Assembly (NCBI GenBank): GCA_030431255.1 | Contig: JAUIJL010000002.1 | Span: forward strand, 434,001-498,000 | Length of the DNA stretch: 64,000 nucleotides | Direction: 5' to 3' | Source: Thermoanaerobaculia bacterium | Lineage (GTDB): Bacteria > Acidobacteriota > Thermoanaerobaculia > Multivoradales > J023 | Part shown: positions 24,072 through 33,740 of the stretch, piece after piece | Layout: the number at the start of each line of letters is the position of its first letter | Numbering within the stretch: position 1 is the first letter of the stretch | Translations under genes and position numbers: made by a program | The notes under the pieces: model-generated | Database searches by the model: none | What the model saw: only the letters and a program-made list of their open reading frames with translations | Told to the model about the DNA's origin: nothing

Positions 24072-27000
24072 TCAACGCTTGAGCCAAAGCTCTTCGTAGG
24101 CCACGGCCGGCCAGCCGTAGCGGAGGCGCAGACCCTCGACTCCGGGTCGGGCCAGCCAGCAGACTTGCTCGTGGAAGAGTGGCACGACGAGGGCTTCTTG
24201 GCCGAGGATTTGCTCTAGCTCGCGGTAGATGCCTTGACGGGCGCGCAGGTCGGTTTCGCCGCGCCCACGCTCGATCAACCGATCCAGGCGCTCGTGACAG
24301 AGCAGGCGGCCGAGGATGCCGTCGTCGCTGTGGAAGATGTCGGCGAAGGAGGACGGATCCGGGGCGTCGGCGTTCCAACGGGTGGCGACGACGTCGACGG
24401 TTCGGCGGGCGGCGGCTTCGAGCATTTCGGCGGTGTTGGTGTGTCTCACCACCAACTCGGCCCCGCTGCGGGTGAGGTCGTCGGAAAGGGCCTGCCAGAA
24501 GCCGTAGAATTGATCGAGAAAGAGTGGATGCAGGGCGATTTCGAGGCGCAGGCCTTCGAAGCGCTCGCCGCCGATGGAGTCCGATGGCTGCGGCACCGGC
24601 TCGCGGATCAGCAGGCCGGGCGGGATGAATCCCGCGGCCGGCACGCCCATGCGCCCGAGCTTGGCCAGGCTGAGGGCGGCGGTCAAGCGAATCCGTCGAT
24701 CCAAGGCGGTTCGCAAGGTGGGGTCGGCGAGCGGGCCTTGGAGCCGGTTGAAGGCCAAGAAGTGGGTGGCAAAGGCCGGATGCTCGCGGAGATTTGCGGC
24801 GTAGGACGGCATACGGCTGAAGTGCTCGAGATCCGCGGGGCTCATATGACCGACCACTTGGAAGCGGCCGGACTCGAAGTCCTTGGGCACCCGGCTCGGC
24901 GACACGCCGAGCTCGAAGACGAGGCGCTCACTGCGGGGCAGCTCCGGACGCCAATAGTCGGGATTGGCCGCCAGCTCCACCCGCGCTCCAGGCTCCAACC
25001 CGACCAAACAAAACGGCCCCGTGCCCACACAGCCGTCGCGCCAGGTGCCGTCGAAGCGGGTGGCACCTTCGGGCACGATGGCCGTCGACGGATCCGACAT
25101 CAAGGATGGGAAATAGGCCAAAGATTGGGTCAACCGGATCAGCAGCTCCCGATCCGAGAGAATGACGATGCCCTCGAGATCCTCCACTTGGCCCACCTGG
25201 TAGGCCAATGCCCCTTCGATGTACAACAACGTGGATTCCACATCCGTACGACCGCTGCGCAGCAAGCGGCAGAAGGAATAGCGCACGTCCCGGGGGGTCA
25301 AGCGACGGCCGTCGTGGAAACGGACCTCGCGCAGGGTGATGCGGAACTCCCGCGCCTCGTCGTCGGCGGTGATCGATTCCGCCAGATGGGGCACGATCGC
25401 CGCTCCCTCGTCGATACACGTCAGGGTCTCGAAGACCGTGGTCACCACCTCGGCGTTGTCGGAGACGAAGCAATCTGCCGGGTCGAGGGTGTCGAAGCGA
25501 GACGGCAGCGGAATGTGCAATCGCCCGGATCGGTTAGCCCCGGGTCGCGCCCGTCGAACCGCGCCTTCAGGTAGCCAGCCCATGGACCGGTAGCTCACGA
25601 AGGGCGGCCTGGGTGACGTCTCCAAGCCGTCGACCCGCGGCGAATGGACCCGATATTCCACGTCGTGAAAAAGGGGCAGCATCAAGTGCTCGTGCACCAA
25701 AAGCCGCTGCAATCGGCGGTAGAAACGCTCTCGCACCGCGATGCGTGTTTCCCGACGCGCTTGCTCGATCAGCTTGTCGAGCTCGGGAAAACCCACCAGA
25801 TCCGCGAATTCTCCGGCTTGGGAGTGGAACGCGCCGAAGCAATAGGCGTCCGGATCGAAGTAGTCCGGCAGCCAGCGGGAAAACACCAGGTCGAAACCGC
25901 TCCAGTCCCGGTCCGCCGGCACGGAGGACACCTTCTCCACCTCGATATCGACCCCGAGCAGCGACCACTCCGAAAAAATCGCCTCGGTGACCTGCCGGTA
26001 AACGTCGGCAAAGACGGGATCGAGGGCCACCTTCAGGCGAACCGGCAAGGGTGTAAAGTCCTGCATGGACGCGATGGCGTCGAATCGATCCACCGGCCTC
26101 GGCCGTTGAGGCTCGGCGTCGTGACCCGGTAGGCCGGGCGGGATCCAGCTCATGGCCGGCAAAGCGAACCGCGCCATGCGACGCCAAACCAGCTCCCGGC
26201 TGTCGATCACCCCGGCCAGAATCCGGCGCAGACCCCGCTCGTGGCTTCGCGGTCCACGGGCATTGAAGAGCACGAAGGCGATGCTCGGTAGGGTCGTTTC
26301 ACTGATGCAATTCCGGAATCTGCCGCTGTGAAAGAAGTCCTCCAAATCCGACGGCATCAAACCCCGAGCCACCTCGATTTCGTTGGCTCGCAACGCGTCG
26401 GCCATCAGGCGAGAGTCCGCGAATGCCTGGACCCAAAGCCGGCTGGGTTTGACTTTGTCCCGATTCCTGCCGTGCTCGTTGGGCTCCAAAACCCAAGCGG
26501 TTTCGTCGCGCTTGAGGACAAAGGGCCCTGTTCCCAGCACTTGATTGCCCAGCCGCAGCGCAATGCTGAGGCTGAATGACGACAAGAGAGCGGGGAAAAT
26601 ATTGTGCGCTTCCTTGAGCTGAACCGCCAAGTCCCGCTCTCCCGCCAGGGTGAGCCCGGTGATCTCTTCCGCCTCTTCACGCACGAACTCGGTGCCGCCC
26701 ACCACCAATTCGAGGACCGCCGCCGTGCGCCGGGGTCCCCGTCGGGCCGACTCCTCCAAGGACGCTTTGACCAGCTCGGCAGTGACCGGCGTGCCGTCGG
26801 AAAAGCGCAGGTCTTGACGCAGCTGAAAGGTGTAGACCAGGCCATCCTCGGAGCTCGACAACGCCCGGCACAAGCGCGGCACATAGTTGCCGTCACCGTC
26901 GACTTGGAGCAAGGGCTCGAAAACCTGGGACAAGATCTCCTTGTCGCGGCGAAAGAGCGCCACCGCCGGATCGGTGGTGGTGATTTCCGCCAGCTGGCCG

Positions 27001-29687
27001 ATGCGCAGCTCGGCGCCGACTTCCGGCTCCAAGAGCGGTTCTTCCACGTCGTCTTTGGTGGCAAGACTCCGGGCTTCGATCAAATATTGATTTGCTTCGT
27101 GGTAGCTGCCGCGCAGGTTGGCCGAGGTGGCTGCCAAGGTCAGCAAAGAGGCCAAGCTTTCGTCCGACCCGCCGTTGCGAGCCAGCTTCAGGCCCTCTTC
27201 CAGCCAACGCTGCATCTCCGTCAGGCGACGGCTCTTCCAAGCGGTCTCCGCCAGCAGCAGGGTGGCTCGGGCCGCTTTATCGATTTGATTCGCGCGTTCA
27301 AAGGCGCGGGCCGCCCGGCCCGCCTCTTTGACCGCCGCGTCCGGCTTGCCCTTGGCGCTTTGCGCCTCCGCCAGAATGAGCCGCAGATCCCCTTCCGTGG
27401 AGTCGGCGGAAAGATCGTCCTCGGCAAAGTCCAGCGCAACTTGGGCGGCTCGGATGGCGTCGTCCCAACAATAGGCATCCAAGGACTGACGGGCTAACAT
27501 CTGTCCGTATTGGATGGTCTTGTCGACCACATCGCCTTCCGAGAAGTGGTGCACCAGCTGGGAAAGCACCCGTTCCGGACGCTCGCCGTATCTCGCCTCC
27601 AATCGCTCGGCGTGGGTACGGTGCAAACGGCGTCGGCGCCGGCGGGGCAATCGCGCGTAAACCACCTCCCGAACCAGGGCGCTCGAGAACCGCAGCCAAT
27701 CCCCACGGGAGCGATGGTCCTCCTCCAATAGCTCCCGGGAGATCAAGGCGTCGACCGCGTCCTCGAGGTCGTTGCGACCATCCCAAAGGTTTTCCAAATC
27801 TTTGAAATCGAATCGTCGGCCGAGCACCGAGGCGGTGCCCAGGACCTTTTGCAGACCGTCATCCAGACGCTCCAAGCGCGTCTCCACCGCCTGCTGAATG
27901 GTCTCCGGCAGCTCTCCTGAAAGACGGCTGTCGCGGATCAGATCCCAACGGTCCGCCAGCCGTCCGGCATTCAGCTCGCCGCTGTCGGTGAGGGTTCGAA
28001 CCAGCTCTTGGACGAAGAAAGGGTTGCCCTCGGTGGCATCGTAAAGCCTTTCCGCCAGCTCGTCGGTCAGCGCGGGACCGGGGATCAAATATTCCAGCAG
28101 CTCCCGATGAGCCTCCGTATCCAGGGCCTTCAGCTCCAGGTGTAAGGCCGCCTGATCTCCCTCCAAGCCGCGGACCAACGATCTCAAGGGATGGCGCTTG
28201 CCGGTGGCGCTGGGACGATAGGTGCCGATGATCAGGGTCGGCGTGGGGCCCAATCGTCGGAAGAGGTATTGAATGAGCCGGATCGACGCATCCGCCGCAT
28301 GCAGCTGCTCCACCATCAGGATCAACGGCTCGCCCCCGGACATGCGGGTCATGGTGCGGGCGATCAGCTCATAGAGGTGGTTCGGGTCCTCGAGATTGCG
28401 CTCCGCGAGACCCCGGTCGTCGTCGAGGGCGGCGCCGCATAGCTCGGGAATCTCTCCCAACGCGGGAAAGAGGGTCAGCAGCTCGGAGGCGACGTCGGAA
28501 AAATCAGGGGTCTTCGGAGCCGCTACGTGGCTTCCCGTGGAGCTGGTACCGTGCAACCGACGGAAGTAGTCCTGAATCAGCTCGCCGAAAGCTTCGTAGG
28601 CGTACCCCCCTTCGCGGGTCGAGAATCTGCCGTGAAGCACTCGAATCCGCTTGAGACGGGCTTCGTTTTCGAGCTCCCGTAGCAATCTAGACTTGCCCAT
28701 GCCCCGCTCGCCGGAAAGCAGCACCAGCTGGCAATCACCGCCGATCGCCGCCTCGAGGCGGACGCGAAGGGCATCGAGATCCACGGTCCGACCCACGAGC
28801 GGCATCTCTCCCGGGCGCTCGGCACGGCGGCCGATTCGCGGCAGGCGGCGGTCCTCGGTATCGCTCTGGCTCAGGTCCCGCATGTATTCCCGCAGGGCGA
28901 CGGCTAGGTCCTGCCCTCGCTCGATCCGCTCCTCGGGATATTTCGCCATGCAAGCTTGGACCAAAGCCTCGAGCCGAGGGTCGACCCCTTGGGCTTCCAA
29001 GCTTTCGGGCTTTTCATGCACGATGCGATAGAGCACCGTGGCCGGCGAGCCTTCAAAAGGCGGTGAGCCGCTCAGGCACTCATAGAGAATCGTTCCGAGG
29101 GAATAGAGGTCGCTTCGGCCGTCGAGCTCCGACGAGAGAATCTGCTCCGGGCTCAGGTAGGAAAGGGTGCCGGGCAAGTTGCCGGTTTTGGTCAGCCGGG
29201 AGGACGTTCGCGGCAGGGCGAGGCCGAAGTCCATGACCCAAACCCGCGAGACTTTGCCCCGTTCCAGGGACACCATGATGTTCTCGGGTTTGATGTCCCG
29301 ATGCACCACGTGATTGGCGGAGCTGTAATCCAACGCTTCCGCCACTTGGGCGATGATCTCTAGGGTTTCGTCGAGGGGTAAGCGACGCTCCCGCAGGAGC
29401 TGGTGCAGGGTGCGGCCGTGCAAGACCGGCATGACGAAGAAGAGCCAGGTCTCGTGACGACCGAAATCGTAGATCGGAGCGATGGCGGGGTGGTCCAATC
29501 CCGCGACCACTTGCGCCTCCCGCTGAAAACGCTCGACGGCCGCTTCCACCAAGCCGTCGGTGGAGATCATCTTGACCGCGACCTCGCGACCCAAGCGGGG
29601 GTCTTTAGCCCGATAAACGACAGCCATGCCGCCTTTGCCGAGCTCCCCCACCAACTCATAGCGATCCAACAGACGGGTGCCGATCAT
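24072..29687 (-). CDS. Ser/Thr kinase fused to STAND-like ATPase and two family-5 solute-binding domains
   Basis: 1871 residues in one uninterrupted frame. Residues 10-270: Hanks-type kinase with GELGKGGMAVVY, Lys39, HRDIKPEN (Asp131, Asn136) and DFG (Asp153), so probably active. Residues about 297-500: AAA_16/STAND-like ATPase with Walker A GERGMGKS (326-333) and a Walker B-like LILMVEQLHAAD, as in PknK-type proteins. Residues about 600-880: helical, TPR-like. Residues about 890-1375 and 1385-1870: two SBP_bac_5 (DppA/OppA-type) domains, each with the FE(P/T)L start, a YTFQLR.../FRITLR strand followed by F.DG..(V/L)T, and GTGPF. I see no signal peptide or membrane helix, so the binding domains should be cytoplasmic. 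The likely role is sensing a ligand inside the cell and controlling the kinase; this is inference. Confidence 0.9.
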   Translation of the reverse strand: MIGTRLLDRYELVGELGKGGMAVVYRAKDPRLGREVAVKMISTDGLVEAAVERFQREAQVVAGLDHPAIAPIYDFGRHETWLFFVMPVLHGRTLHQLLRERRLPLDETLEIIAQVAEALDYSSANHVVHRDIKPENIMVSLERGKVSRVWVMDFGLALPRTSSRLTKTGNLPGTLSYLSPEQILSSELDGRSDLYSLGTILYECLSGSPPFEGSPATVLYRIVHEKPESLEAQGVDPRLEALVQACMAKYPEERIERGQDLAVALREYMRDLSQSDTEDRRLPRIGRRAERPGEMPLVGRTVDLDALRVRLEAAIGGDCQLVLLSGERGMGKSRLLRELENEARLKRIRVLHGRFSTREGGYAYEAFGELIQDYFRRLHGTSSTGSHVAAPKTPDFSDVASELLTLFPALGEIPELCGAALDDDRGLAERNLEDPNHLYELIARTMTRMSGGEPLILMVEQLHAADASIRLIQYLFRRLGPTPTLIIGTYRPSATGKRHPLRSLVRGLEGDQAALHLELKALDTEAHRELLEYLIPGPALTDELAERLYDATEGNPFFVQELVRTLTDSGELNAGRLADRWDLIRDSRLSGELPETIQQAVETRLERLDDGLQKVLGTASVLGRRFDFKDLENLWDGRNDLEDAVDALISRELLEEDHRSRGDWLRFSSALVREVVYARLPRRRRRRLHRTHAERLEARYGERPERVLSQLVHHFSEGDVVDKTIQYGQMLARQSLDAYCWDDAIRAAQVALDFAEDDLSADSTEGDLRLILAEAQSAKGKPDAAVKEAGRAARAFERANQIDKAARATLLLAETAWKSRRLTEMQRWLEEGLKLARNGGSDESLASLLTLAATSANLRGSYHEANQYLIEARSLATKDDVEEPLLEPEVGAELRIGQLAEITTTDPAVALFRRDKEILSQVFEPLLQVDGDGNYVPRLCRALSSSEDGLVYTFQLRQDLRFSDGTPVTAELVKASLEESARRGPRRTAAVLELVVGGTEFVREEAEEITGLTLAGERDLAVQLKEAHNIFPALLSSFSLSIALRLGNQVLGTGPFVLKRDETAWVLEPNEHGRNRDKVKPSRLWVQAFADSRLMADALRANEIEVARGLMPSDLEDFFHSGRFRNCISETTLPSIAFVLFNARGPRSHERGLRRILAGVIDSRELVWRRMARFALPAMSWIPPGLPGHDAEPQRPRPVDRFDAIASMQDFTPLPVRLKVALDPVFADVYRQVTEAIFSEWSLLGVDIEVEKVSSVPADRDWSGFDLVFSRWLPDYFDPDAYCFGAFHSQAGEFADLVGFPELDKLIEQARRETRIAVRERFYRRLQRLLVHEHLMLPLFHDVEYRVHSPRVDGLETSPRPPFVSYRSMGWLPEGAVRRARPGANRSGRLHIPLPSRFDTLDPADCFVSDNAEVVTTVFETLTCIDEGAAIVPHLAESITADDEAREFRITLREVRFHDGRRLTPRDVRYSFCRLLRSGRTDVESTLLYIEGALAYQVGQVEDLEGIVILSDRELLIRLTQSLAYFPSLMSDPSTAIVPEGATRFDGTWRDGCVGTGPFCLVGLEPGARVELAANPDYWRPELPRSERLVFELGVSPSRVPKDFESGRFQVVGHMSPADLEHFSRMPSYAANLREHPAFATHFLAFNRLQGPLADPTLRTALDRRIRLTAALSLAKLGRMGVPAAGFIPPGLLIREPVPQPSDSIGGERFEGLRLEIALHPLFLDQFYGFWQALSDDLTRSGAELVVRHTNTAEMLEAAARRTVDVVATRWNADAPDPSSFADIFHSDDGILGRLLCHERLDRLIERGRGETDLRARQGIYRELEQILGQEALVVPLFHEQVCWLARPGVEGLRLRYGWPAVAYEELWLKR

Positions 29688-30347: not shown

Positions 30348-32834
30348 TCAGATATATCCCAACGCTTCGAGGCTCTTGCGGGTTTCCTCGTCGAATTCCA
30401 CCTCGGTTTCCGGTCCCGAAGCGCCCCTGGCCAGCCTTTGCCGCAACAGGCTTTTGAATCGACCGGCTCGCACCGGGTATCGGTCGATCACATCCACCAT
30501 TTCCTTGGAGTCGTTGCGGAGGTCGAAAAGTCGACACCAGACGGGCTCCCCTCCTCGAATCACCGCGATCAGCTTGAACGAGCCGTCGGAGACCGACATC
30601 CGCTCGTCACCGTCGAGGTGCAAGTGGGAGTAGATCAGCCGGTCCGCCGCCGGACGTTGGACGGCGCCGTCGGCTGTGATCCACGCATGTCCCTCCAGAC
30701 CCTGGGGCGGCGACATGTCTAGAGCGGCCAAGAGCGTGGGTAAGACGTCCATATGCTGTGCCTGCTCCGTGAGCCTCTGGGCCGACACCCCGGGGCCGCG
30801 GATCATCCACGGAACGTCCAACGATTCCACATGCAACGCCCTGCCGTGCTCCAGATTTCCGTGCTCCAAAAACTCCTCGCCGTGATCGGAAATCACGGTG
30901 ACCAGGGATCGCGCCAGTCCGAATCGTTCCAGGATCTCGAGGAATCGAGCGAAGGAGGCGTCGGAATAGGCGATTTCCGTGTGGTAGAGCGCCAAGAGCT
31001 GATCCATCAGCTGATCTTCCGCCGGCAACCGACCGGAGCGAATATCGTTGACCACATCCAAGGAAGACGCTGCCAGCTCCTCGGGCACCTCCGGCAATCG
31101 ACGGCGTCTGAAGTCCGCCGGCGGGTCATAGGGCGAGTGGGGATCCAAGATGTGGACCCACAAAAACAACGGTCGATCGTCTTGCCGTTGGCTGAGGAAG
31201 CGCTCCACGACCTGGTTGACCTCTTGAGCCGGAGCCGTCTCCCCCAAATATTCGAAAAATTCGAAACCCTGATCGAAACCGAATGTTTCGGTGATGTTCG
31301 GATTGGTGACGATGGCCGCCGTCGCCCATCCCGAGGCATGCAGGAGCTCGGCCAGGGTCACGAGCCGATCGTCCAACAGATGTTTACGATTCACCGCACC
31401 GTGAACCCGTGGCCAGAGGCCGGTGAAGATCGAAGCCATCGATGCTTTCGTCCACGGCGATTGAGCGGTGAGCTGCTCAAAGACCACTGACTCTTCGGCG
31501 AATTGATCGAAGGTCGGGGTGGCGACCGGGCCCCCTCGGTATCCCAAGCGATCCGCCCGCAGGGTGTCGATGGAATACACCACCAAGGCCTCGGGCGCCG
31601 CTTCACGGTCCGAATCGGAAGGTTCAGCGTCTGATGCCACTGTAGATTCCGCTGCGGCGAGGTCGTCTGTGAAGCCGTCCTCGGCGGCATCTACGTCCGA
31701 GGCACCCTCCGAGACTGTCCGGGCGATCACCGGTAATTCGAGCCGAGCCCCACCTTGCTCCCCTTGCTCACCCAACGCCACCAGCCTCAGCCTCACCCAG
31801 CCGGGATCGGCGCCCAAGAAGACGCGGATCGGGCCAGATTCAGACCAGCCCTTGGCGCGAACGAGGGGCGACCCCGTCTGAGGCGACCCCGTCTCAGGCG
31901 ACCCCGTCTGAGGCGACCCCGTCTCAGGCGACCCCGTCTGAGGCGACCCCGTCTCAGACGACCCCGTCTCGGGCGACCCCGTCTGCGGTAGTTCCGTCTG
32001 CGGTAATACAGTGAGACTCAGCCTACCTTTGCCACGAATCCCCAGATCCGTCTGCAACCAGGCATTCGCCGGCAGCTCAACGAAGAAGTCGGCCCGGCTT
32101 CCCCAAGGCATCCAAATTCGATCGCCCTGGGCTCGCACCCGGCGATCGTCGCCCGGGCTTTTCACGGCTCCCCCCGGTCCGCAATCCGTCTGGGTCGCCT
32201 CACACAACCAGGCACCGTGCAGGGCCGCCGCCAATTGGCGCGCATCTCGCGCTCCGAGGGCCTCTTGCGGGGATCGGCTCCACTGCCAGTGGAGCTTGAG
32301 CAAGCTCGGGCCCTCCTTCAACCGTTCCTCGGGCAGAGCCAAGCGCACCGGACCACGGCTACCGGGCTCGAGGGTGAATTCGTGGATCCGCTCGCCGTTG
32401 AGCTCGACGGTGGCCTGCTGCGGCGGTGAGGAGGGATAGGTGAAAGGCCGAAGATCCAACACCAATACCAAATCTCGGCGTTGGGCGATGGGCAAGCTGA
32501 GCTCGGAAGTCTGCCCGATGCCCCACACAAATCGATCTTGATCCGGTCCCTCGTTCGCCCACCAACCCGAGCCCAGGAATTGTCGGCCGGCCTCGCTACC
32601 GATGCCGAGATTCGCGGGCTCGACCACCGACTCGGCCCATTGCAGCGCGGGCACCAGGTCCAAAGCCGTCTCGAGCTCTACCGGCTCCGGAGATCCGCAA
32701 CCCGTAGGGAGCAACAAACCGACGGCCAACAGGCCATTCAAGGGGCTGAGGTAGGAAGCCAAATGCGAAACGAGCCGTGACCCCGAGGGACCACGGCCGT
32801 TGAGAATTCGGAAGAACCATCGGACGTACGCCAT
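30348..32834 (-). CDS. sulfatase-like hydrolase, lipoprotein with internal repeat
   Basis: 828 residues. An N-terminal hydrophobic segment ends in the lipobox LLPTGC (Cys46). Residues 60-360 are a beta-rich region of unknown role that holds ten or so (E/Q)TGSP repeats (about 279-323). The alkaline-phosphatase-superfamily sulfatase domain begins near 415: YSIDTLRADRLGY (metal Asp), SPWTKASMASIFTG and VISDHGEEFLEHG (metal Asp/His). The position of the formylglycine Cys is a Thr (Thr462), as in many sulfatase-like proteins of unknown substrate, so true sulfatase activity is unlikely. It ends in SLEALGYI, a tail common in this class in Acidobacteriota. Confidence 0.85.
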   Translation of the reverse strand: MAYVRWFFRILNGRGPSGSRLVSHLASYLSPLNGLLAVGLLLPTGCGSPEPVELETALDLVPALQWAESVVEPANLGIGSEAGRQFLGSGWWANEGPDQDRFVWGIGQTSELSLPIAQRRDLVLVLDLRPFTYPSSPPQQATVELNGERIHEFTLEPGSRGPVRLALPEERLKEGPSLLKLHWQWSRSPQEALGARDARQLAAALHGAWLCEATQTDCGPGGAVKSPGDDRRVRAQGDRIWMPWGSRADFFVELPANAWLQTDLGIRGKGRLSLTVLPQTELPQTGSPETGSSETGSPQTGSPETGSPQTGSPETGSPQTGSPLVRAKGWSESGPIRVFLGADPGWVRLRLVALGEQGEQGGARLELPVIARTVSEGASDVDAAEDGFTDDLAAAESTVASDAEPSDSDREAAPEALVVYSIDTLRADRLGYRGGPVATPTFDQFAEESVVFEQLTAQSPWTKASMASIFTGLWPRVHGAVNRKHLLDDRLVTLAELLHASGWATAAIVTNPNITETFGFDQGFEFFEYLGETAPAQEVNQVVERFLSQRQDDRPLFLWVHILDPHSPYDPPADFRRRRLPEVPEELAASSLDVVNDIRSGRLPAEDQLMDQLLALYHTEIAYSDASFARFLEILERFGLARSLVTVISDHGEEFLEHGNLEHGRALHVESLDVPWMIRGPGVSAQRLTEQAQHMDVLPTLLAALDMSPPQGLEGHAWITADGAVQRPAADRLIYSHLHLDGDERMSVSDGSFKLIAVIRGGEPVWCRLFDLRNDSKEMVDVIDRYPVRAGRFKSLLRQRLARGASGPETEVEFDEETRKSLEALGYI
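31867..32001 (-). repeat. coding 15-base minisatellite, nine units
   Basis: Eight near-identical 15-base units (plus-strand form GGCGACCCCGTCTSA) at 31867-31986 and a degenerate ninth at 31987-32001. They keep the frame and encode alternating ETGSP and QTGSP. Alternation of the GA and CA forms suggests the true repeating unit is 30 bases. Confidence 0.9.
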
Positions 32835-32888: not shown

Positions 32889-33485
32889 TCAAGATCCAGC
32901 GGCGGCTTTTACAGCTTCTAGGAGCTCTTCCGTTTTCGGACGTTTGGCGTAGTTCTCATCGACCCGCACATAGGTCGCGGTGCCGGACGGATCCACCACG
33001 ATCGCGGTGGGGTGGGGCAAATCAGCTCCCGGCTTCTTGATGCCGTAGCGGCGGGTCACCTCGAGGTCAGGATCCATCAGGGTCGGGAATTCCAACCCTT
33101 TTTTGGCCCGCATCTTTTCGAGCTTGTCGGCAGGATCGTTGCTGATCACCCAGATTTCCGCATTGAGGTCTTGGAAGGATTTCAGTTGTTCTTGCAGCTT
33201 CCCGAGCTGCGATCTACAGAATGGTCACCAAGTGCCGCGAAAGAAGATCATCACCAGAGATTTCTTATCCTTGAGGTCTTCCAGGCGATAGACCTCTCCG
33301 TCACTGCCGGTGAGCTCAAAGCTGGGCGCCGCTTGGCCCGGGGCGATGCGCTCGGCCTGCTCATCCCCTTCGGCCCAGGCGTGGCCCACACCCAAGGTGC
33401 ATACCAGCAAAGCCGTGACCAGCAGCCACCGGGAAGCGGTGCCCAATCCCGGGCTCGAGCCGCTGGGTTTCAATGGATTCAACAT
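32889..33485 (-). CDS. secreted peroxiredoxin-like selenoprotein (in-frame UGA as Sec)
   Basis: 198 residues if the TGA at 33225-33227 is read as selenocysteine (residue 87). Start at the ATG at 33485, six bases after AAGGAGG; the ATG at 33491 touches the GGAGG and is unlikely. A signal peptide (WLLVTALLVCTLGVGHAWA) precedes an AhpC/TSA-type redoxin domain: APGQAAPSFELTGSDGEVY, LVMIFFRGTW-U-PFC-RSQLGKLQ, EIWVISNDP, FPTLMDPDLEVTRRYGI and HPTAIVVDPSGTATYVR. The TGA replaces the first Cys of the family's WCP(F/Y)C redox motif, the second Cys is kept, and the same frame codes a normal domain end for 86 more residues. A SECIS-like hairpin follows the TGA. Predicted thiol or peroxide redox function in the periplasm. 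A nonsense mutation is the alternative. Confidence 0.87.
33194..33210 (-). promoter_or_regulatory. candidate bacterial SECIS hairpin
   Basis: In the mRNA, 14 bases after the UGA, GCAGCU-CGGGA-AGCUGC forms a perfect six-pair stem with a five-base loop. The loop begins 21 bases after the UGA and has G at its second position. As I recall it, the published bacterial SECIS model asks for a loop 16-37 bases downstream of UGA with a G in its first two positions, which this fits. The bases are also coding (SQLGKLQ). Confidence 0.65.
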
Positions 33486-33740
33486 CAACATCCTCCTTGT
33501 TCAACGTTCCCGCCGACCCGCGACGGGGCGGTTTGCTCACATGCTACGCATCCCATCATACGTCGAAGGATCGAAATCGGTTGTGGGCGGCCGACAGATC
33601 CAGCTGCCGTGCCCAGCTCGATGAAATTTCTGTAAAGCGTCTCTGCCCGCATGGGCCGACCGATAAACTCGGCTTCCATCTCGGGCGCGATGCCCGGGCT
33701 CCCCGCTACCCCCTCTCCCCTGCCCTTGGAGCTTCCAGCC

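Follow-up and report, generated by a model that had tools for sequence, protein, structure and literature searches.

An open reading frame that stops at its presumed active site and resumes at once in the same frame raises the question of whether it is a decayed gene, two short genes, or one gene in which the stop is read as an amino acid. Such a frame lies on the minus strand of the window, by which we mean the whole 64,000-nucleotide stretch of DNA analysed here. In translation, the frame 33485-32889 contains a single internal stop, TGA 33227-33225, at residue 87 of 198 (FFRGTW-U-PFCRSQL), and its terminal stop, at 32891-32889, is also TGA. A standard ORF list splits the gene into 33225-33491 and 32889-33149. 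The preliminary description of this DNA had proposed that these two ORFs are one frame broken by a single TGA, placed at the first Cys position of a WCP(F/Y)C-type motif, and both points hold: the stop falls at 33227-33225 and the motif reads W-U-P-F-C. The analysis confirmed that this apparently broken gene is one intact gene, in which UGA stands for selenocysteine (Sec) at the active site. The features of the locus are collected in Table 1.

Table 1. Features of the selenoprotein locus (window coordinates).
Feature	Position	Strand	Remarks and basis
Whole selenoprotein gene	32889..33485	(-)	198 aa with UGA as Sec; translation and Pfam
In-frame TGA = Sec87, motif W-U-P-F-C	33225..33227	(-)	Column conservation in relatives
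Putative Shine-Dalgarno-like AAGGAGG	33492..33498	(-)	6 nt 5' of ATG 33485; read from the sequence
Probable signal peptide, residues 1-38	33372..33485	(-)	Hydrophobic segment; likely cleavage after A-W-A
Thioredoxin/AhpC-TSA-fold domain, residues 49-198	32892..33341	(-)	AlphaFold2 model and invariant columns
Bacterial SECIS hairpin GCAGCT-CGGGA-AGCTGC	33194..33210	(-)	Folding; conserved and covarying in homologues

The whole product, translated with Sec, matches the Pfam family AhpC-TSA (PF00578) with 107.1 bits against a gathering score of 26 over residues 49-172, and Redoxin with 76 bits, also over the cut-off. A single domain thus spans the TGA and continues beyond it, as had been claimed. 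These matches bear on the reading of the locus as two separate short genes, or as a functional truncated protein, which could appeal to the GTG-started downstream ORF 32889-33149. That ORF, however, begins only at residue 113, without the active site; one domain, with a confidently predicted single fold, covers both halves, and the interrupted column is unbroken in 71 Cys homologues. We regard this reading as extremely improbable. A second ATG, at 33491, directly abuts the Shine-Dalgarno-like sequence. A sigma-70 promoter search found none, and a single terminator-like site did not exceed chance expectation. The gene is overlapped in antisense by a 207-aa open frame, 33012-33635 (+), which is longer than either half and has no Pfam match; similar antisense shadow frames are present in relatives. 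Gene callers can be expected to break up or shorten the Sec gene, or they may choose the antisense frame instead.

The preliminary description had judged a random stop at just this codon to be very improbable, and two observations bear this out. When the window was scanned for TGA codons flanked on either side by an in-frame open stretch with coding-like codon usage, TGA 33227-33225 ranked first of the two that passed, the other being where a 1871-aa gene normally ends. Moreover, 14 of the 17 AhpC-TSA matches in the host genome (16 over the cut-off) have no internal stop. The 1871-aa gene, 24072-29687 (-), is itself an odd fusion of a protein kinase, AAA_16 and two SBP_bac_5 solute-binding stretches. 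The remaining three AhpC-TSA matches carry TGA, at a WUPFC motif in the window gene and in a paralogue on contig C45 (L050:1483-1989 (-)), and at GUMFC in a very divergent paralogue on contig C32 (L053:1453-1920 (+)).

The position of the TGA is conserved in relatives. Matches at E <= 0.001 were found in 146 of 147 genomes (the host and 146 relatives), many of them to remote thioredoxin-fold proteins. All 31 best matches among the 147 genomes, window gene included, contain an internal TGA, and two of them also a TAA. Residue-level inspection covered 29 of these 31 loci (L020-L048, L020 being the window gene) and, beyond them, L049-L056; the TGA occupied the motif column in 29 of the 29. The TAA of L047 is the end of the gene, and that of L033 (genome G031) lies two codons past the TGA in a copy that has Ser for the second Cys and looks degenerate. 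In an alignment of 21 rows (A1; L020-L041 without the degenerate L033), residues 87, TGA in all, and 90 are invariant in 21 of 21, the window gene included, as are R83, G84, W86, R91, Q93, L94, L97 and P159. Stops scattered elsewhere in the gene among close relatives, which the preliminary description had named as evidence against its proposal, are absent from the best homologues, with L033 as the degenerate case.

The contigs of the named genomes were also scanned with A1 under a Cys-only pattern, which could return Cys forms alone and served as the Cys control. It yielded 71 Cys loci with at most 37% identity over the matched segment, all 71 reading unbroken through the residue-87 column; Sec forms in relatives reach up to 52% identity. 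A tree of 101 rows (30 Sec and 71 Cys, the Cys forms of the phylum search left out) groups the 21 A1 rows in one clade with support 96/95 and no Cys member, to be read with the caveat that the bootstrap values are unsettled and some long branches unsure. At the level of the phylum, a profile search of 297 genomes placed TGA-bearing loci in the first 17 positions (own included), the 18th being the first without. At residue level, 30 loci from this search had Sec in 24 and Cys in 6 at the residue-87 column, so that the in-frame UGA, found at 29 of 29 best loci, stands where more distant homologues, those 71 and these 6, have Cys. Locus L175 was listed with a TGA in the phylum search and yet has Cys at the motif column; its TGA lies elsewhere, and a listed TGA is thus not always at the motif. 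Weaker matches listed in this search contain TAA (G387), TAG (G403) or two TGA (G217 and G349). The presence of the Sec gene is patchy: in G001, the only genus mate sampled, the best match (E 4.3e-9) is not a close homologue, although selA and tRNA-Sec are there. A scan of viral contigs for relatives gave three pattern matches, none of which was confirmed.

These comparisons weigh on the possibility that this is an ordinary Cys protein whose codon 87 has been hit by a chance nonsense mutation or altered by a sequencing error. Formally the frame does have an interruption, and L033, with its TAA and lost second Cys, demonstrates what looks like degeneration in a relative. Against this stand the TGA at the same column in all 29 best loci, the window gene among them, the intact coding 3' of the TGA, the constrained and covarying hairpin described below, and the complete Sec machinery of the genome. 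A pseudogene is consequently a reading to which we give next to no credence. Both it and the two-gene reading were rejected, each on the grounds given for it.

The preliminary description had named beforehand a genome lacking the Sec decoding genes as grounds for abandoning the proposal. The host genome (10.19 Mb in 54 contigs, 98.8% complete) holds the full selA/selB/selC/selD set: the tRNA-Sec scores 72.7 bits (gathering score 47) and has the anticodon tca, and SelA (458.7 bits), SelB (358.7 bits) and SelD (359.6 bits) are all over their cut-offs. The selD gene (L018:1501-2424 (-)) contains an in-frame UGA within its own GUAAK motif, and the host SelD is probably itself a selenoprotein. Among the 147 genomes, selA exceeds the cut-off in 131 and tRNA-Sec is found in 128; selenocysteine use looks near-general in the sampled class, compared with 21.5% of sequenced bacteria reported in a 2006 survey (PMC1794560). 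Cys forms are not restricted to genomes without Sec decoding, as selA was over the cut-off in 4 of the 16 genomes searched out of the 71 with a Cys form. A wholesale reassignment of UGA was rejected as the cause of the readthrough, since the Sec gene itself ends with UGA.

The preliminary description had further pointed to a six-pair hairpin 14 bases after the UGA, with G in the second loop position. The sequence reads as claimed: the hairpin starts exactly 14 nt past the UGA, its apical loop starts after 20 nt, and six pairs enclose the 5-nt loop CGGGA with G at position 2. Folding of the 37 nt that follow the UGA gives a minimum free energy (MFE) of -9.1 kcal/mol, and the hairpin by itself gives -7.6. 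The published rules for bacterial SECIS elements call for a loop of 3-9 nt, a stem of 4-16 bp, G in loop positions 1-2, a spacing of 16-37 nt and MFE <= -7.5 (PMC13188914), and the hairpin conforms to them: its loop has 5 nt with G in second place, its stem has 6 pairs and its spacing is 20 nt. As evidence taken alone it is unremarkable: the fold of 33180-33230 is no more stable than its shuffles (z -0.11), and resampling of synonymous codons under the same protein gives P 0.107. Its significance thus comes from comparison, and in the homologues it is both conserved and covarying.

In the A1 clade, a stem of at least six pairs occurs in 21 of 21 rows, against 3.08 expected from synonymous resampling. 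The innermost pair, C-G in most relatives, is C-A in the window, which leaves the 5-nt loop CGGGA. Stems of at least six pairs were found in 26 of the 30 Sec rows versus 12 of the 71 Cys rows (Fisher P 4e-11, the rows not being independent); the Sec rows with fewer pairs, L043, L045, L047 and L053, all lie beyond the 21-row clade. The Cys forms from the phylum search have stems of 2-4. These figures also concern the possibility that a standard amino acid such as Cys or Trp is inserted at the UGA, through near-cognate decoding or a partial code change. Readthrough at UGA is known to happen in bacteria, but here the genome has a tRNA-Sec with the anticodon tca, the SECIS-type hairpin is much commoner with the UGA forms than with the Cys forms of either search, and the gene terminates at UGA. 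We hold insertion of a standard amino acid to be very unlikely. A second group of Sec paralogues (L043, L045, L047 and L048) has another hairpin, CTCCGAGTTACGGAG-like, with the loop AGTTA and the Leu codon TTA at the loop; it is perhaps a second SECIS type, fixed independently.

The codons under the stem are almost frozen in A1. Q93 is CAG in 21 of 21 rows, E96 GAG in 20 of 20 and L97 CTG in 21 of 21, and L94 is CTC in 16, CTA in 5 and CTG in none, whereas codon choice varies at the other Leu, Pro, Gly and Arg positions that are invariant. The L94 codon goes with the residue after it: the 16 rows with Gly95 all have CTC and the 5 with Val95 all have CTA, which benefits the loop and not the protein. 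The G of the loop is supplied by the GGN codon of Gly95.

Covariation was assessed on 36 sequences, the 21 A1 rows and 15 of the 30 phylum loci (L151-L164 and L166); left out were L148-L150 (repeats of earlier loci), L165 (Cys) and the lower-scoring L167-L177 (5 Cys, 6 Sec), among which L167 has a best stem of 3. Among the 252 cells, 96.0% are paired, and both sides have changed at 4 of the 7 pairs, in 13 cells. Shuffles reached the observed values in 0 of 500 cases for double-changed cells, 0 of 500 for the covariation score and 2 of 500 for the number of pairs; the measure "further pair types", one of five, did not separate from the shuffles (194 of 500). Sliding the partner strand by 1-3 columns lowered pairing to 17.5-50.8%. 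Where Leu94 has become Phe (L163 and L164), a compensating base is found on the opposite strand of the stem. Gly95 is present in 30 of the 36 Sec rows and in 2 of the 71 Cys rows. One may ask whether an old, phylum-wide, Sec-only subclade of exported UxxC oxidoreductases exists in which the hairpin has fixed the overlapped residues (QLGEL) as well as the codons. We consider the chances of this to be even: the Cys rows sit on other branches, and common descent is a rival reason for the Gly95 contrast. If it is true, an RNA signal would dictate protein sequence beside the active site.

The product was described as secreted; "exported, probably periplasmic" is the better wording, judged from the hydrophobic N-terminus. 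Its hydrophobic segment has a mean Kyte-Doolittle value of 2.52 over 12 residues, and a segment of at least 2.0 is present in 29 of the 30 Sec rows, own included. The AlphaFold2 model (mean pLDDT 86.8) places Sec87 just ahead of the helix 88-99, the usual place of the active site in the thioredoxin fold, and its Foldseek matches in the PDB include Bcp, ResA and AhpE.

The term "peroxiredoxin-like", also used in the preliminary description, fits the fold but not the catalytic site. When the protein is aligned to a Bcp-type peroxiredoxin (2cx3), Cys90 corresponds to the peroxidatic Cys and Sec87 to the Ser that precedes it; an alignment to ResA matches both residues of the motif and also the proline (Pro159). 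A classical peroxidase chemistry of the Bcp/AhpE type, in what would be the same selenoprotein, can draw on the AhpC-TSA and Redoxin matches, on the best Foldseek matches being peroxiredoxins of this type alongside ResA, and on the placement of Cys90. A peroxiredoxin proper, however, has Thr or Ser three residues before the peroxidatic Cys, where Sec stands here, and a conserved catalytic Arg, whose aligned position, residue 160, is Thr in 11, Ala in 9 and Arg in 1 of the 21 rows; Pro159, aligned with the ResA proline, is invariant. Peroxidase chemistry is therefore a possible but rather unlikely alternative. The position of Sec at the first, thioredoxin-like site of the motif favours a UxxC thiol-disulfide oxidoreductase in which Sec makes the attack, and this function appears likelier from the sequence than that of a classical peroxidase.

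The surroundings of the gene were compared in 21 stretches, 15 kb of the window and 20 stretches from relatives. A given neighbour family is shared by 3 of the 21 at most, the sulfatase-like cluster being one such case, so no operon is inferred. The two largest clusters of neighbours (11 and 5 stretches) were discarded, most or all of their members being, from where they lie, antisense shadows of the Sec gene. In the window, the downstream neighbour is a sulfatase-domain gene, 30348-32834 (-), and the upstream one a divergent frame without a Pfam match. The sulfatase-domain gene contains a 15-bp tandem repeat (31867-31984, 7.9 copies) that encodes ETGSP/QTGSP repeats.

Taken together, the selenoprotein interpretation is supported. 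The best explanation, to which we assign a probability of about 0.94, is a genuine selenoprotein gene with an exported UxxC product of the AhpC-TSA fold, its UGA being read by means of tRNA-Sec, SelB and the hairpin. What was directly observed is the frame itself, together with decoding genes in the genome, a conserved column and a covarying RNA. In the mechanism that we infer, UGA 33227-33225 would be decoded as Sec by tRNA-Sec and SelB, with SelB presumably recruited by the in-gene hairpin 14 nt 3' of the UGA. The signal peptide would export the product, which is predicted to fold as a thioredoxin/AhpC-TSA domain with the active site Sec87/Cys90 and the invariant proline aligned with that of ResA. 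Most likely, Sec87 would attack and Cys90 resolve, and disulfides would be reduced or exchanged, or peroxides reduced, via a selenenylsulfide; the same conditional sense attaches to which substrate and electron donor the enzyme uses and to which way its reaction runs.

Several known systems resemble this protein, and none of the NCBIfam models scored over its cut-off. Selenocysteine-containing peroxiredoxins (TxxU; PrxU, NF040737) share the AhpC/TSA fold and a Sec in the active site, but the Sec of the window protein lies at the T position of TxxC and is not peroxidatic, and NF040737 gives 26.4 bits against 270. The SelL-related model NF040769 matches at 56.5 bits, under its cut-off of 120, which places the protein outside that family; the SelL motif, moreover, is UxxU, as opposed to UxxC here. 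With the exported oxidoreductases of the TlpA/ResA type it has in common the probable export signal, a WCxxC-type site, the proline aligned with that of ResA and a similar fold. It differs from them in having Sec for the first Cys and in scoring 64.7 bits against 170 with the ResA model (NF002854).

The closest likeness is to the Prx-like thiol:disulfide oxidoreductase selenoproteins (PF00578, UxxC; Prx-like or Prx-like 1), which have been reported since 2005 (PMC1088965, PMC1794560, PMC2398784, PMC9312934, PMC13188914) and for which Cys homologues are known. The window protein has the same PF00578 domain and the same Sec-first UxxC motif (U87-P-F-C90) as published examples such as WP_010940744.1, kinship here being set by the definition of domain and motif. 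What sets it apart is its subclade, FFRGxWUPxCRxQLGELQ, whose hairpin is strongly conserved and which has no Cys members in the sample. The window gene is thus a real new member of an already described kind. Less expected are the covarying SECIS and a class with nearly general Sec use. Bacterial SECIS elements of different genes are reported to show no mutual sequence resemblance, even though a common stem-loop model exists (PMC13188914). Because these sequences differ between genes, a family in which compensatory changes can be counted is useful, and it is in this conserved, covarying SECIS that the finding is of most use.
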